In this document: positions 19,932 to 51,174 of the stretch, in pieces
How positions within the stretch are numbered: position 1 is the first letter of the stretch
Layout of the letters: each line of letters starts with the position of its first letter
NCBI RefSeq assembly: GCF_946902905.1
Contig: NZ_OX336385.1
Span: 1,360,501-1,424,500, forward strand
DNA length: 64,000 nt
From: Streptococcus sp. Marseille-Q6470
GTDB taxonomy: Bacteria; Bacillota; Bacilli; Lactobacillales; Streptococcaceae
Direction: 5' to 3'
Notes under the pieces: generated by a model
Told to the model about the DNA's origin: nothing
Seen by the model: only the letters and a program-made list of their open reading frames with translations
The model's database searches: none
Translations under genes and position numbers: made by a program

Positions 19932-19963
19932 GAAACGATAGATTTTTGAATAGGAATACAATC

Positions 19964-20716
19964 ATGTTTGGATTTTTAAAAAAAGATAAAGTAACAGAAA
20001 CACCAGCAGTGGTGCCAGCACATATCGGAGTTATCATGGATGGGAATGGTCGTTGGGCTAAAAAACGGATGCAGCCACGTGTCTTTGGGCATAAGGCTGG
20101 GATGGATGCTCTGAGAACGGTAGCCATTGCTGCTAGTGATATGGGTGTCAAGGCTATGACTGTTTATGCCTTCTCTACTGAAAATTGGACACGTCCAGAC
20201 CAGGAAGTCAAGTTTATCATGAACTTGCCTGTTGAATTTTATGATAAGTATGTCCCCGAATTGCACCAAAAGAACATGAAGATCCAAATGATTGGGGAAA
20301 CCGATCGCTTGCCAAAACAAACTTTTGAATCTTTGAAAAAAGCGGAAGAGTTGACCAAGTTAAACACAGGTTTGATTCTCAACTTTGCCCTTAATTACGG
20401 TGGACGAGCTGAGATTACACAAGCGGTCAAGTTGATTGCACAGGATGTTTTGGATGCTAAGGTGAATCCAGGCGATATTACAGAAGAGTTGATTGGGGAA
20501 TACCTCTTTACAGGGCATTTGCCTAAGGTCTTGCGCGACCCGGACTTAATCATTCGAACGAGTGGAGAGCTTCGCTTGAGCAATTTCTTGCCTTGGCAAG
20601 CAGCTTATAGTGAACTTTATTTCACAGATGTTTTGTGGCCTGACTTTGATGAGGAAGCTTTGAAAGAAGCTATTGCAGAGTATAATCGCCGCAATCGTCG
20701 ATTTGGAGGAGTATAG
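19964..20716 (+). CDS. uppS: Undecaprenyl diphosphate synthase
   Basis: 250 residues from the ATG at 19964 (AGGAATAC upstream); a TTG at 19946 is less likely. The cis-prenyltransferase motif HIGVIMDGNGRWAKKR has catalytic Asp26, and the C-terminal RTSGELRLSNFLPWQAAYSE motif is complete. It builds the C55 lipid carrier for peptidoglycan and teichoic acid synthesis from farnesyl diphosphate. First gene of uppS-cdsA-rseP-proS, a conserved streptococcal operon. Confidence 0.97.
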   Translation: MFGFLKKDKVTETPAVVPAHIGVIMDGNGRWAKKRMQPRVFGHKAGMDALRTVAIAASDMGVKAMTVYAFSTENWTRPDQEVKFIMNLPVEFYDKYVPELHQKNMKIQMIGETDRLPKQTFESLKKAEELTKLNTGLILNFALNYGGRAEITQAVKLIAQDVLDAKVNPGDITEELIGEYLFTGHLPKVLRDPDLIIRTSGELRLSNFLPWQAAYSELYFTDVLWPDFDEEALKEAIAEYNRRNRRFGGV

Positions 20717-37754: not shown

Positions 37755-37876
37755 TATAATATTTCCAACTAAGATAAAAACACAGTTCTGGTTGGTAGTC
37801 CAGACGTAGGCAAGCCTATCAGTAACCTTCCTCCTTGGTTGTCCATTCTTAGGGATAGATTTAAGGAGGTGCTGTC
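37755..37876 (+). ncRNA. yjdF riboswitch with its promoter
   Basis: An extended -10 (TGCTATAAT, -10 box at 37755-37760) is followed by a leader of about 110 nt. The leader holds the recognisable blocks of the yjdF motif: TTCTGGTTGGTAGTCCAGACG, GCCTATCAG, CTTCCTCCTTGG and the pre-start stem GTCCATTCTTAGGGATAGAT, ending in TTAAGGAGGTG, where the ribosome site is embedded in a hairpin. The riboswitch class is known to bind azaaromatic compounds. The downstream gene is a YjdF-family protein, which supports the call. Confidence 0.88.
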
Positions 37877-38290
37877 GTGGAAACAATTTCAATTGGATTG
37901 ACAGTTTATTTTGAAGATGGATTTTGGCATGGTTTGTTCGAACAAGTGTATCGAGAAACTTATCAAGTTTGTCGTGTGACATTTGGTCAGGAGCCAAAAG
38001 ATGATGAAATTCTAGAGATCTTACAGACTCAGTTTACTCAATTATCTTTTAGTCCAGAAGCTACAGTTAAGCAGCATGTAAAAATCAAGAATCCTAAACG
38101 ATTACAGCGAGCTGTGAAGAAACAAGTAAAGCAGAAAGTTTCTTCCAAGTCGAAAGAATTATTGCAGTTGCAGTATGAGGAAAGGAAAAAGATTTCAAAA
38201 CATCAATCTAGTGTCCAAAAACAATTGCTCAAACAAGAGAAATTCGAACGCAAACAGCAAAAACGTAGAGAGAAGCACAAGGGGCATTAA
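37877..38290 (+). CDS. yjdF: YjdF-family protein (DUF2992)
   Basis: 137 residues starting with GTG at 37877, placed 10 bases after AAGGAGGT. The N-terminal 70 residues (TISIGLTVYFEDGFWHGLFEQV, CRVTFGQEPKDDEILEILQ) are the DUF2992 domain, and the C-terminus is a long Lys/Gln/Glu helix. Its biochemical role is unknown; the gene is classically controlled by the yjdF riboswitch, seen just upstream. A terminator follows, so it forms a stand-alone unit. Confidence 0.9.
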   Translation: METISIGLTVYFEDGFWHGLFEQVYRETYQVCRVTFGQEPKDDEILEILQTQFTQLSFSPEATVKQHVKIKNPKRLQRAVKKQVKQKVSSKSKELLQLQYEERKKISKHQSSVQKQLLKQEKFERKQQKRREKHKGH

Positions 38291-39546: not shown

Positions 39547-39579
39547 CTTAAGATAACTTTAAGTCTTCTCTTGTATCAT
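39547..39579 (+). promoter_or_regulatory. CiaR-dependent promoter of small RNA 1
   Basis: CTTAAG (39547-39552), 5 bp, TTTAAG (39558-39563) is the CiaR direct repeat (consensus TTTAAG-N5-TTTAAG) with one mismatch. Ten bases later TATCAT (39574-39579) serves as -10. Confidence 0.82.
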
Positions 39580-39585
39580 ATAATC

Positions 39586-39686
39586 GTTAAGTAAAGACCT
39601 CCTAACTTTATTTAATAAAAATCCTAAACTTTTCTTTTTCATAATAATCTCCCTAAAGAAGCCACCAAATTCGGTGGCTTTTTTGT
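39586..39686 (+). ncRNA. Cia-dependent small RNA 1 (csRNA type)
   Basis: About 100 nt from the CiaR promoter to the terminator AGCCACCAAATTCGGTGGCTTTTTT. A 5' hairpin (TTAAGTAAAG with CTTTATTTAA) presents CCTCC in its loop, and the single-stranded middle contains ATAATCTCCCTA; both can pair with Shine-Dalgarno sequences. The same ATAATCTCCCTA occurs in the second RNA at 41304. This is the architecture of the streptococcal csRNAs, which repress comC and other mRNAs. There is no coding potential. Confidence 0.85.
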
Positions 39687-39702
39687 TTGTAGGCTGGATT
39701 TT

Positions 39703-39720
39703 TGCTATAATAGGAACATG
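39703..39720 (+). promoter_or_regulatory. Extended -10 at the ruvB start, probably leaderless
   Basis: TGCTATAAT, six bases, ATG (39718). The expected transcription start coincides with the A of the ATG. Confidence 0.6.
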
Positions 39721-40716
39721 AGTAGAATTTTAGATAATGAAATCATGGGTGATGAGGAGTTGGTAGAACGTACCCTCCGTCCCCAATATTTACGTGAATA
39801 TATCGGACAAGATAAGGTCAAGGATCAGCTTCAAATCTTTATCGAAGCAGCAAAAATGCGTGATGAGGCGCTGGACCATGTTCTTTTGTTTGGCCCTCCA
39901 GGTCTCGGGAAAACAACCATGGCTTTTGTCATTGCCAATGAACTGGGAGTCAATCTCAAACAAACGTCAGGTCCTGTTATCGAAAAAGCTGGTGATCTGG
40001 TAGCGATTTTGAATGACTTGGAGCCAGGAGATGTGCTCTTTATCGACGAGATTCATCGCTTGCCCATGTCAGTAGAAGAGGTACTTTACAGTGCTATGGA
40101 AGATTTCTACATCGACATCATGATTGGTGCAGGGGAAGCTAGCCGTAGTGTCCATCTAGACTTGCCACCTTTTACCTTGATTGGTGCGACGACACGAGCA
40201 GGGATGCTCTCAAATCCTCTTCGTGCCCGTTTTGGAATCACTGGTCACATGGAATACTATACCCATGACGACTTGACAGAGATTGTCGAGCGGACGGCAG
40301 ATATTTTTGAGATGGAAATTACTCATGAAGCAGCTTCGGAGTTAGCTTTACGTAGTCGTGGGACTCCTCGTATCGCCAATCGTCTTCTCAAGCGCGTGCG
40401 CGACTTTGCGCAGATTATGGGCGATGGCTTGATTGATGATGTGATTACTGATAAGGCTTTAACTATGCTGGATGTAGACCATGAAGGTTTGGACTATGTA
40501 GACCAGAAAATTCTTCGCACTATGATTGAGATGTACGGTGGTGGTCCTGTCGGTCTAGGAACTCTTTCGGTTAATATCGCGGAAGAGCGTGAGACGGTAG
40601 AGGATATGTACGAACCTTACCTGATCCAGAAAGGCTTTATCATGCGAACTCGTTCAGGACGGGTCGCGACAGCTAAGGCTTATGAACATTTAGGGTATGA
40701 ATACATTGAAAAATAA
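39718..40716 (+). CDS. ruvB: Holliday junction helicase subunit RuvB
   Basis: 332 residues. Walker [10 protein letters not shown] (59-67), Walker B as LFIDEIHRL, sensor 1 in [20 protein letters not shown] and sensor 2 region [17 protein letters not shown]; the C-terminal winged helix ends [19 protein letters not shown]+ motor that drives branch migration with RuvA in recombination and repair. It lies between two Cia-type small RNA genes and overlaps the following gene by 20 bases. Confidence 0.98.
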
Positions 40717-41269
40717 GTCTGAAATCTTAGACTCTTTCAGAGAAAATCCTGATATTATGGCTATTCTGACCATCATCCGTGACTTAGAGTTGAAAGATTC
40801 CTGGTTGGCGGCTGGCTCGGTCCGAAATTTTATCTGGAATCTCTTGTCAGATAAGCCAGCCTTTGACCGTGAAACGGATGTGGATGTGATTTTCTTTGAC
40901 CCAGATGTGAGTTACGAAGAAACGCTGGCTATAGAAAACAAGTTGAGAGAGGACTTTCCCCAGTATCAGTGGGAGCTGAAAAATCAAGTCTTTATGCATC
41001 AGCATAGTCCCCATACGCCTCCGTATAGAAATTCCTGCGATGCCATGAGTAAATATCCTGAACGTTGTACGGCAGTAGGACTTCGCTTGCATGCTGACGC
41101 AACTTTAGAGCTCTTTGCTCCTTATGGTTTAGAGGATATTTTGAATTTTCAGGTTTCTCCAACTCCCCATTTTTTAGAAAATGACGACCGGATGAAGCTT
41201 TATCAACAGCGTTTATCTAAGAAAAACTGGCAAGTAAAATGGAAAAATCTCACATTTAAAAATACTTAA
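40697..41269 (+). CDS. Nucleotidyltransferase-like protein (COG3575)
   Basis: 190 residues. The [11 protein letters not shown] motif followed by [14 protein letters not shown] carries the acidic residues of a minimal nucleotidyltransferase fold. The middle [47 protein letters not shown] is the hallmark of the COG3575/DUF925 family. Substrate unknown. It overlaps the end of ruvB by 20 bases, and this pairing is also found in other streptococci. The second small RNA promoter starts inside its last codons. Confidence 0.85.
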
Positions 41270-41297
41270 GGAAACTTTAAGATAGGAGCTGTATACT
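41265..41297 (+). promoter_or_regulatory. CiaR-dependent promoter of small RNA 2
   Basis: CTTAAG (41265-41270), 5 bp, TTTAAG (41276-41281), 10 bp, TATACT (41292-41297): the same spacing as at 39547. The first half site overlaps the stop region of the upstream gene. Confidence 0.83.
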
Positions 41298-41303
41298 TAT
41301 CTC

Positions 41304-41398
41304 ATAAGTTAAGAAGAACTTAACTTATACTCCTAAAACTTTTTCATAATAATCTCCCTATAAAAAAATTAAGTCGCCCAATCAGGCGGCTTTTTTTG
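41304..41398 (+). ncRNA. Cia-dependent small RNA 2 (csRNA type)
   Basis: About 95 nt. A perfect 5' hairpin (AAGTTAAG, loop AAGAA, CTTAACTT) is followed by an unpaired segment with ACTCCTAAAAC and ATAATCTCCCTA, then the terminator AAGTCGCC, loop, GGCGGCTTTTTTT. The promoter is a CiaR box. It is a paralogue of the RNA at 39586 and shares its CU-rich anti-Shine-Dalgarno block. Confidence 0.85.
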
Positions 41399-41452
41399 TT
41401 GCGAACTCGATGTGAGAATGGTTGCTAATCAAGGACAAACACCGGCGAAATG

Positions 41453-41481
41453 TTGACAAAGGGGAAAGATTTCTCTAGTAT
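41453..41481 (+). promoter_or_regulatory. Promoter of the 41554 gene
   Basis: TTGACA (41453-41458), 17 bp, TAGTAT (41476-41481). The TCTAGTATAAGAAGT sequence here recurs at 52917-52931. Confidence 0.75.
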
Positions 41482-41553
41482 AAGAAGTGAGCTAGAGATT
41501 TTCTGAGATTAGAGTAAATGGAAGTCCATGGTTTGAGAAAGAGATGTTGAACA

Positions 41554-42114
41554 ATGACTGAAAGAATGAAAAACAATAGGAAACTAGTTAATCTAGGATT
41601 GTATAAAAACAAAATAGTCTATTATGACTTAAAAGAAAAGAGACTTTACTTTTCAATTCTCGAAAGAACATCTAAGAATCACCATTACTACACTCTTGGA
41701 CTCACTTTGCTATCTCTCCCCATTATTCGATTGCTGAATGGTTTAACCGTTTTTGATATCCCTACTATCAAATACTCTAGCTTCATTCTATGTACTTGTC
41801 TTTCCTTGCTCATAGGGAAATTTGTAGTGGACTACTCTAACAAAGACTTGGACTTATATCCTGCATTATTTACAGATATTGAGTACTCAGAGTTCTTAGA
41901 AATAGCAAAGAAAAATGGAACTCTTGCTTTCGTATTTAATAGTATTAGTAGCGTCAGTTTGATAGGCTCCTTGATAGTTTACCTGGTCTATGCAAAGTTT
42001 TTAGGATTGCTGATTTATTCTGTTTTCTTGTTCATTCTTTACATCTGTGTGGTCAATAATGTCCATAGGAGGAATAAAGTGATTAAAAAACTAATTTGGT
42101 TAACGAATATCTAG
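41554..42114 (+). CDS. Membrane protein, unknown
   Basis: 186 residues with four hydrophobic segments in two pairs (about 50-65 and 75-90; 130-150 and 155-170). The N-terminus is basic and Lys/Tyr-rich. No family recognised; streptococci carry many small membrane proteins of this kind, some linked to bacteriocin or Tandem-type loci, but nothing here supports such a link. Its own consensus promoter lies 73 bases upstream. The ribosome site before the ATG at 41554 is weak (GAGATG), and ATG at 41566 is an alternative. Confidence 0.65.
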   Translation: MTERMKNNRKLVNLGLYKNKIVYYDLKEKRLYFSILERTSKNHHYYTLGLTLLSLPIIRLLNGLTVFDIPTIKYSSFILCTCLSLLIGKFVVDYSNKDLDLYPALFTDIEYSEFLEIAKKNGTLAFVFNSISSVSLIGSLIVYLVYAKFLGLLIYSVFLFILYICVVNNVHRRNKVIKKLIWLTNI

Positions 42115-44481: not shown

Positions 44482-45961
44482 TTTCTATAATTTTTAGGGT
44501 TGGTGGAAATTTTCCACCAACCCTATTTTAGTGTATACAAAAAGGCCAACATCCATTATATTAAAAGCGCCTAAACCTAAAACAAAAGAATGATGACCAT
44601 ATGAACAATATACTAGAAGCTACACTACAAATCAAAGATAAAAACATTATTTGGGATAATAATGTTCAAGAGAAGATATTAAAAAATAGAAAATCTTTAT
44701 TTTATTCAGCTACATATACGCATAAACCAGAATTTTGTGCCGTTTGTGGGTGCGTTAGCCAAAATAACAATATAGTTAAAAACGGGACGAAAACTTCTCG
44801 TATCACTCTCTGTTCTGTTTCAGGCCTTCCAGCCTACTTAAATCTACGAAATCAGAGATTTCTCTGTAGAGAATGTGGTTCTTCATTTACTGCAGATACT
44901 AGTCGAATTGTAGAAAAATACTGTCATATCTCGAAACGATTAAAAAATGAAATTAAGGCAAAAATAAGTGAAACAGTATCTGAAACATATATTGCCAAAG
45001 AAACAAATGTTTCAATTCATACCGTTAGACGTATCATAGATGATACAGCACGATTATTAACGATTAAACCATTACATGATTTACCCGAGCATTTGTGTTT
45101 TGATGAATTTAAATCTGTTAAATCTTCCGATAGTAATATGAGCTTCATTATTTGTGATAGCACTACACACAAGTTGGTCGATGTTGTACGAGATAGAAAA
45201 TCTTACAGTTTGAAACAATATTTTTATCGTTTTGAGCCTAAGACTAGATTAAAGGTGAAAACTATCTCCATCGATATGTACTTGCCATACATTCAATTAA
45301 TAAAAGAAATGTTTCTTAACGCAAAAATTATCATTGATCCTTTTCACATTGTACAAGCCTTGAATAGAGAACTAAATCGAACTCGGGTACGTATCATGAA
45401 TCAGCATCGTTATAAAAATCCTAAATTATATCGAAAGTTAAAACATTATTGGAAGTTAATTTTAAAGAACCCTAATGAACTTCAGAACTATAAATATAAT
45501 CGTTATAAGCTTTTTGAAAGCTTCATAACAAGTAAAGGAATCGTAGATTATATCTTAGAAAACAATCCATCTCTAAAAAATGATTATGAGGTTGTACATT
45601 CACCTCGTGAATGTATACAGGATAGAGATTATATAGAATTCAAGGAAACGATTGAAGCAGCTACGCAATTAGACCTATCTCCTGGTTTAAAAAGAGTATT
45701 AAAGACTCTTATGACTTACTTGCCATATATTCAAAATACTTGTGAGTATCCAACTAGAACAAATGGCCCTATTGAAGGAATAAACAATAAAATAAAAGTG
45801 CTTAAAAGAAATGCCTACGGCTTTAGAAACTATTACTATTTTAGAAATAGGATTATTTTAATAACAAAAATGTTTGGCCCAAAACAAAAAGGAATTAAGC
45901 AACAATTAGTTGCTTAATCCCTTCCTAAATTTCTTCATCAACACTATTTGACAAAGAGCCC
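44482..45961 (+). mobile_element. Complete ISL3-family insertion sequence
   Basis: About 1480 bp. The right end, read outward-in, is GGCTCTTTGTCAAATAG; the left end, GTTTCTATAATTTTTAG, is a degenerate inverted copy and then continues GGTTGGTGGAA against GTGTTGATGAA on the right. Inside the left end is a near-perfect 27-bp palindrome (GGGTTGGTGG and CCACCAACCC arms) that may act as a terminator guarding the transposase. One intact transposase gene is present. No 8-bp target duplication is visible at the flanks. Confidence 0.85.
44601..45917 (+). CDS. ISL3-family transposase, intact
   Basis: 438 residues. N-terminal zinc finger (CAVCGCVSQN and CRECGSSF), a helix-turn-helix (AKETNVSIHTVRRIIDDTARLL) and the DDE catalytic core (LCFDEFKSV, KTISIDMYLPYIQLIKEMFLNAKIIIDPFHIVQALN, and GPIEGINNKIKVLKRNAYGFRNYYYFRNRI). 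No frameshift, so the element may be active. It is AT-rich relative to its neighbours. The first codons are duplicated at 46924, where a second left end lies. Confidence 0.95.
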   Translation: MNNILEATLQIKDKNIIWDNNVQEKILKNRKSLFYSATYTHKPEFCAVCGCVSQNNNIVKNGTKTSRITLCSVSGLPAYLNLRNQRFLCRECGSSFTADTSRIVEKYCHISKRLKNEIKAKISETVSETYIAKETNVSIHTVRRIIDDTARLLTIKPLHDLPEHLCFDEFKSVKSSDSNMSFIICDSTTHKLVDVVRDRKSYSLKQYFYRFEPKTRLKVKTISIDMYLPYIQLIKEMFLNAKIIIDPFHIVQALNRELNRTRVRIMNQHRYKNPKLYRKLKHYWKLILKNPNELQNYKYNRYKLFESFITSKGIVDYILENNPSLKNDYEVVHSPRECIQDRDYIEFKETIEAATQLDLSPGLKRVLKTLMTYLPYIQNTCEYPTRTNGPIEGINNKIKVLKRNAYGFRNYYYFRNRIILITKMFGPKQKGIKQQLVA

Positions 45962-50130: not shown

Positions 50131-51120
50131 TTATTGAACGTTAGCTTTGCTAATCAAGTCAAACAAATCTTTTTTAGTGTCGTTTGGTACTTTACGTACG
50201 TCAAATTCAACACCAAGGTCACGCATTTTTTCAAATGTAGCAACGTCGTCTTTGTCCATTGACAATACGTTGTTGATCATTGTTTTACCAGTTGAGTGAG
50301 CCATTGATCCAACGTTAAGAGTCTTGATTGGTACACCGCCTTCGATAGCACGAAGGGCATCTTGAGGTGTTTCAAACAAGATAAGGGCGTGTGTGTTACC
50401 AAAACGAGGGTCTTTTGAAACCTCAATCAATTTTTTGATTGGCACAACGTTAGCTTTTACTCCGTTAGGAGCAGCTTGTTTAATCAACTCTTTACGCAAT
50501 TCGTCGTTTGCAACGTTATCTGAAGCAACGATGATACGGTCTGCTTTTGAATCTGGTGTCCAAGCAGTTGCGACTTGTCCGTGAAGAAGACGTGTGTCAA
50601 GACGAGCAAGATTGATTTTCAATTTACCGTCTCCGATAACTGTTCCTTCTGGGATAGCAGCTTGGGCTACAGGAGCAGCTGCAGCAGGTGCAACTTCTTC
50701 AGCTGGGTTTAGCTCTTCTGGAAGAGCCTTGATGCCATCTTTTGCTTCTTTAATGATGTTCGCAGCGACTTTATCCACTCCAGCATTAGCATCCATGAGG
50801 CGCTCTGTGTAGGTTTGGATCAACATCGGCAAGTTAAGTCCAGTGATGATGGCAAATTTACGCTCAGGATTTTCTCCCATTACGCGGCTAGCTTGGTTAA
50901 ATGGAGAACCACTCCAAAGGTCAGCCAAGACTAGAACCTCATCTTCTGCGTCAAATGCAGCCACAGCATTGTTGAATTTGGCGTATAAATCGTCTGGACC
51001 TTCGTTTGGCATAAAGGTTACAACTTGAACCTTTTCTTGTTCACCAAAGATCATAGATCCTGACTGATGAATACCTGCGGCAAATTCACCGTGGCTCGCA
51101 ATAATGATTCCGATACTCAT
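50131..51120 (-). CDS. manL: Mannose PTS EIIAB component
   Basis: 329 residues from the ATG at 51120 (AAGGAGG upstream; the ATG at 51129 is only two bases from it). The EIIA domain ([21 protein letters not shown], phospho-His in SHGEF) is joined by an Ala/Pro linker to EIIB ([17 protein letters not shown], phospho-His in LLHGQ). It passes phosphate from HPr to the sugar. First gene of manLMN, controlled by the promoter, cre and CiaR sites at 51158-51210. Confidence 0.97.
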
Positions 51121-51157
51121 TATTGTCATTCCTCCTTATAAAATGTTTGACTTGTAG

Positions 51158-51174
51158 TTTAAGAAAACTTTAAG
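51158..51174 (+). promoter_or_regulatory. CiaR box in the manL leader
   Basis: TTTAAG-AAAAC-TTTAAG is a perfect CiaR direct repeat, on the strand opposite to manL and just after its predicted start point (about 51176). This placement suits repression; manLMN is reported as a CiaR-repressed operon in pneumococcus. Confidence 0.85.

Follow-up and report, generated by a model that had tools for sequence, protein, structure and literature searches.

Two csRNA genes at the ends of the ruvB unit

The window, that is, the whole stretch of 64,000 nucleotides analysed here, carries on its forward strand ruvB (39718..40716, +), which encodes the Holliday junction helicase (Pfam RuvB_N, AAA_lid_4 and RuvB_C), followed by a gene of the nucleotidyltransferase family (40697..41269, +; Pfam NTP_transf_6, 193.2 bits), called the COG3575 gene in an earlier note on this DNA. 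At both ends of this unit the note had placed a CiaR direct repeat, CTTAAG-N5-TTTAAG, with a –10 box exactly 10 bases later, and both placements are correct to the base. In front of ruvB, sequence and pattern search give the repeat CTTAAG-ATAAC-TTTAAG at 39547..39563 (+) and the –10 box TATCAT at 39574..39579 (+); behind the nucleotidyltransferase gene they give CTTAAG-GAAAC-TTTAAG at 41265..41281 (+) and TATACT at 41292..41297 (+). Both promoters also fit the form expected of csRNA genes, an intergenic NTTAAG-N5-WTTAAG 10 bases before a –10 box. The second repeat overlaps the final five bases of the nucleotidyltransferase gene (stop codon TAA, 41267-41269), while the transcript itself is intergenic.

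The first RNA, of the csRNA2 type, has its predicted start at 39586, the seventh base after the –10 box, and would be about 99-100 nt long (39586..39685, +); the second, of the csRNA4 type, is predicted to start at 41304 and would measure about 93-94 nt (41304..41397, +). In the predicted folds both consist of a 5' hairpin, an unpaired anti-Shine-Dalgarno linker and an intrinsic terminator, as expected from the claim that each end of the unit has a transcript of about 100 nt closed by a strong hairpin. The first RNA has its 5' hairpin at 39586-39616, its open linker with ATAATCTCCCTA, and its terminator hairpin at 39654-39685; in the second, the 5' hairpin (41304-41328) is followed by an open linker with ATAATCTCCCTATAA and by a terminator hairpin at 41371-41392. 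The linker sequence said to be common to the two RNAs, ATAATCTCCCTA, was found in each. The 5' hairpins do differ, that of the first RNA exposing CCUCC in a 9-nt loop and that of the second having a 5-nt loop without CCUCC, again as described before. The folding z-scores are –6.8 for the first RNA and –5.0 for the second, and none of 200 shuffles folded as well for either.

Some features of the surroundings deserve mention. An extended –10 box, TGCTATAAT (39703-39711), ends 6 bases before the ATG of ruvB, so that the ruvB mRNA may be nearly leaderless. The 186-aa ORF behind the second RNA has no Pfam match, and a transposase gene of the ISL3 family (44601-45917; Pfam DDE_Tnp_ISL3) follows the second csRNA gene at a distance of about 3 kb. 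On the other side, about 19 kb ahead of the first csRNA gene, an ORF (19946-20716) reads like uppS. By comparison with the ruvB-uppS region of pneumococcus, where csRNA1, 2 and 4 have been located (Marx et al., 2010; PMC3091779), the region (39586-42114 and the ORF at 19946-20716) therefore appears rearranged. A third exact CiaR repeat, TTTAAG-N5-TTTAAG (51158-51174), lies just upstream of a manL-like PTS gene (50131-51129, –; Pfam EIIA-man and PTSIIB_sorb) in the orientation opposite to the gene; manLMN is the one operon reported as CiaR-repressed in pneumococcus (PMC8317062).

Family membership and identity as csRNA2 and csRNA4

The covariance model search that the earlier note had called for places both RNAs in the Rfam family csRNA (RF02379; gathering cut-off 57 bits), with 96.5 bits for 39586-39684 and 64.4 bits for 41303-41396. 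Three RNAs exceed the Rfam cut-off in the window, the third being a yjdF (azaaromatic) riboswitch (37764-37862; RF01764, 85.3 bits), which is followed by a DUF2992 gene (37877-38290). In a sample of the genus, a csRNA match above cut-off was present in 57 of 98 genomes, or in 66 of the 98 at E values up to 0.001, and in none of 14 control genomes.

The bare CiaR repeat, searched in the window with at most one mismatch, is found at a near-chance level (five matches against 3.3 expected, with 25 of 100 shuffles reaching five); three of the five are exact, namely the two csRNA sites and the one before the manL-like gene. The repeat joined to a –10 box at the fixed distance, by contrast with the bare repeat, occurs six times in the whole genome of 1.715 Mb, against zero for the reversed pattern, while the pattern ATAGGGAGA by itself is not enriched in the genome (12 matches, 12 reversed). 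Four of these six promoters precede the four RF02379 matches of the genome, which thus holds four csRNA genes, the other two about 153 and 275 kb from the pair at ruvB. The remaining two stand before genes that we take, from their N-termini, to be htrA-like and tarI-like. The reading frame of CiaR is intact (223 aa) and contains VVEVYVSKVRKKL, listed as the CiaR recognition helix in Table 1 of Marx et al. (PMC3091779).

To assign types, the rule of Marx et al. was applied, which asks for at least 80% identity to a northern-validated member with consecutive gaps of fewer than 3 bases. The reference positions of S. mitis B6 were those of their Table 2 (PMC3091779), and a genome having csRNAs at these positions (G094) was therefore read as S. 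mitis B6; the comparison ranked two of the four csRNAs of the present genome and was made without the four reference rows of S. oralis Uo5. A genome whose csRNA3 position nearly fits that of Uo5 in Table 2 (G032) has no csRNA at the other four Uo5 positions, and its reading as Uo5 was rejected for that of another strain. The first RNA is 87.0% identical to csRNA2 of S. mitis B6 over 100 columns (largest gap 2) and the second 94.7% identical to csRNA4 over 95 columns (largest gap 1), both within the rule. For the first RNA, however, csRNA3 of S. mitis B6 is nearly as similar (85.3%), so that identity alone does not separate the types and the name csRNA2 leans on position. The two starts lie 1,718 bases apart (41304 minus 39586), the same distance that the Table 2 coordinates give for csRNA2 and csRNA4 in S. 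oralis Uo5 (PMC3091779). Synteny and sequence agree, and the pair is thus read as csRNA2 and csRNA4.

The resemblance to the known systems is close. Like csRNA2/CcnB of S. pneumoniae, S. mitis and S. oralis, the first RNA stands before ruvB, behind a CiaR promoter of fixed spacing, and is built of a 5' hairpin with a CCUCC loop, a linker and a terminator; unlike csRNA2 it begins with G instead of A, its terminator hairpin is nearer that of csRNA3, and a second CiaR promoter is absent from the stretch before it, the place of csRNA1 or csRNA6 in pneumococcus and S. oralis. The second RNA shares with csRNA4/CcnD its place behind the nucleotidyltransferase gene and a promoter overlapping the end of that gene, but shows minor differences in the loop of the 5' hairpin and in the A-run, and the gene that follows it is not uppS. 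Both RNAs thus match the csRNA design of pneumococcus, as first supposed, in Rfam score, promoter architecture, structure and synteny.

These RNAs have been described at the same place in related streptococci, and the pair is therefore a local copy of a known RNA family at a known position: csRNA2 and csRNA4 were placed at ruvB in relatives (Marx et al., 2010; PMC3091779), four csRNAs were reported in S. infantis (Denapaite et al., 2016; PMC4863584), and csRNA2, 3, 4 and 6 are named for another S. infantis strain in an inventory of 2021 (PMC8186281). Northern blots have been published for csRNAs of S. mitis, S. oralis and S. sanguinis, and the signal was lost in a ciaR mutant of S. oralis (PMC3091779). 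As to the non-identical target sets that the earlier note supposed from the different 5' hairpins, the csRNAs of pneumococcus repress comC additively (Laux et al., 2015; PMC4507080). Other reports concern a role in zinc tolerance (PMC10659304) and a link between a prophage-altered csRNA3 and competence (PMC9764711). From what was found in pneumococcus, S. mitis, S. oralis and S. sanguinis, the two RNAs may be expected to be transcribed here as well, to depend on CiaR and to repress translation. Active CiaR would bind the direct repeat, which replaces the –35 region, and turn the promoter on; an RNA of 93-100 nt would be made and end at the intrinsic terminator, and its unpaired linker AUAAUCUCCCUA would lower the translation of mRNAs by pairing with their Shine-Dalgarno and start regions.

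It is very improbable that both elements instead act in cis, the first as a ruvB leader or attenuator and the second as an element at the 3' end of the operon: the first RNA does end 32 bases before the start of ruvB and the second promoter does overlap the end of the nucleotidyltransferase gene, but in the fold each RNA is closed by its own terminator ahead of the next gene, the box at 39703-39711 is likely to be a separate ruvB promoter, members of the same family lie dispersed at the two other places of the genome, and on northern blots for S. mitis and S. oralis both csRNA2 and csRNA4 appear at their predicted sizes of 93-98 nt (PMC3091779); the cis-acting reading was rejected on these grounds.

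The anatomy of the two elements, their membership in the family, the four copies in the genome, the intact CiaR frame and the conservation in the same place are direct observations. With a probability of about 95%, the pair represents the genes of csRNA2 and csRNA4 (in the pneumococcal naming ccnB and ccnD) in a strain of the S. infantis/peroris type and would encode CiaR-activated, terminator-ended RNAs that repress the translation of mRNAs.

Conservation in relatives and RNAs of the csRNA6 type

A total of 72 related loci were fetched, of which 70 continue for 250 bases or more behind the nucleotidyltransferase gene and 67 are usable upstream of ruvB. Over ruvB and its neighbour the closest are those of S. 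peroris ATCC 700780 (L008) and S. infantis SY98 (L019), both at 95.2%, and by sequence the genome is close to S. infantis/S. peroris. In 64 of the 70 loci a CiaR promoter is present at the csRNA4 slot, seven of these loci being from S. sanguinis, where the slot has another RNA; the promoter was not seen in the other six (L027, L028, L029, L061, L065 and L072). Upstream of ruvB at least one CiaR promoter is present in 55 of the 67 loci and was not seen in 12, counts made with a promoter pattern that misses some cases, such as L056, where Rfam finds a csRNA ahead of ruvB; exactly the spacing of the window recurs upstream of ruvB in 21 of the 72. None of eight S. sanguinis loci has an RNA above the Rfam cut-off behind the nucleotidyltransferase gene, in agreement with the replacement of csRNA4 by csRNA7 reported in that species (PMC3091779). 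Covariation in the csRNA4 helices is thin, with two pairs changed on both sides, a number reached by 22 of 500 shuffles, in an alignment of 28 sequences (that of the window and 27 of the 66 slot sequences), where the three rows from S. sanguinis hold another type of RNA and misalign.

In six relatives the RNA carries about 100 extra bases within the loop of the 5' hairpin, after CCTCCTAA or a close variant (from L008:1787, L011:1586, L018:1787, L024:1776, L061:985 and L064:627 on). One end of the insert is multi-copy, with 8, 6, 21 and 5 copies in four genomes (at most one mismatch) and none for the reversed pattern, and seems to resemble the pneumococcal BOX repeat. Judged from length and place, these RNAs are probably csRNA6, an RNA of 200 nt from S. 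oralis and S. infantis that has the kind of promoter, the 5' stem, the linker and the terminator of csRNA2; csRNA6-type RNAs thus look like csRNA2-type RNAs with an insert of about 100 bases in the loop, and the csRNA2-type copy of the window lacks this insert. One of the six loci, L011, belongs to S. infantis DD18, for which csRNA6 genes have been reported (PMC4863584).

Predicted pairing with comC and comD

Pairing with the start regions of mRNAs was predicted by a windowed scheme. As a positive control, comC of a genome called S. mitis-type from its ComC leader (L093) gives –13.5 to –14.1 with all four csRNAs of the present genome, across the Shine-Dalgarno sequence and the start codon. For comC of the present genome the predicted pairing is about –9.8 to –9.9, so that the csRNAs are predicted to find a weaker partner in comC here than in genomes of the S. 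mitis and S. oralis types. The start region of comD, by contrast, contains TTATAGGGAGACATAATG, an 11-base match to TCTCCCTATAA of csRNA4, and reaches –12.25, against –9.78 for comC.

The relatives bear on this in several ways. Among the 39 comD loci compared, no comC was assigned at seven, two of which are not counted as lacking the gene, L188 because its start was wrongly chosen and L192 because its genome (G061) has a ComC match. The genomes of the other five (G002, G003, G286, G067 and G313, with loci L146, L147, L177, L178 and L185, respectively) have no ComC-family match anywhere, while five other genomes in the same search have one; there comD lies directly behind the com promoter. By their sequences, these five genomes appear to have lost the signal and kept the receptor; no report of the loss of comC in S. 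infantis was found in those parts of the open-licence literature that were looked at.

It is conceivable, if rather unlikely, that competence in this lineage is controlled by way of comD and not of comC, csRNA4 and csRNA3 pairing with the ribosome binding site of comD and so keeping CiaR control where the pairing with comC is weak or comC has been lost. The stronger pairing of comD than of comC, which three close relatives (L174-L176) share, speaks for it. So does the start of comD in the five comC-less genomes, which carries ATTATAGGGAGATATAATG, keeps a 12-base match and gives –11.3 to –15.1 with csRNA4 of the present genome; for G002, probably S. infantis SO, pairing with the csRNA4 of the strain itself (L012) likewise comes to –15.1. 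Those genomes of the S. mitis and S. oralis types that were compared show the converse, with strong pairing at comC (about –11.8 to –18.5) and weak pairing at comD (about –2 to –11 for the best of four own RNAs).

Against this stand several results. L152 is an exception in that it pairs strongly at both genes, and comD pairing is weak in L186 and L195, which have the comC type of the present genome (comC about –9.7 and –10.1, comD about –8), as well as in L145 (–11.1 and –6.6, with a comD frame of only 240 aa). The loss of comC may also be a single event. When 269 genes of the window and of a 220-kb sample of the genome were ranked (ORFs of 80 codons or more, crudely called, with comC not among them), comD came only fifth with csRNA4, so that many genes pair as well: 26 of the 269 reach –9.8 and seven reach –12.2. 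The best predicted target of the sample, an uncharacterised gene of 475 aa (L142), pairs more strongly than comD, and for the first RNA a gene that we presume from its start sequence to be FtsY-like (L137) is also among the stronger ones. Of 300 shuffles that keep GGGAG and the ATG, 23, 16, 22 and 86 pair at least as well (for the present genome, L146, L177 and L185, respectively), or 5-29%, and the match at comD is therefore suggestive only. In pneumococcus, moreover, three target-prediction programs put no known csRNA target first, and for some csRNAs one target among the top five (PMC12323649).

A role of comD as the main point at which the csRNAs govern competence in the S. infantis/peroris lineage, through its ribosome binding site in place of comC, and as the remaining CiaR brake on a listen-only circuit in strains without comC, thus appears unlikely. 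As a possible new csRNA target suggested by modelled pairing, comD is a lead, not a result. The open-licence literature, as far as it was looked at, contains no proposal that csRNAs control comD; the comD-directed RNA mentioned there is srn206 (PMC4387999).

The csRNA2 and csRNA4 genes at ruvB add a checked genome of the S. infantis/peroris type to the described csRNA family. At stake is how the CiaRH stress response is linked to competence: since the predicted pairing of comC is weaker here and five relatives have no comC, it becomes testable whether this link has moved to another mRNA or was lost.
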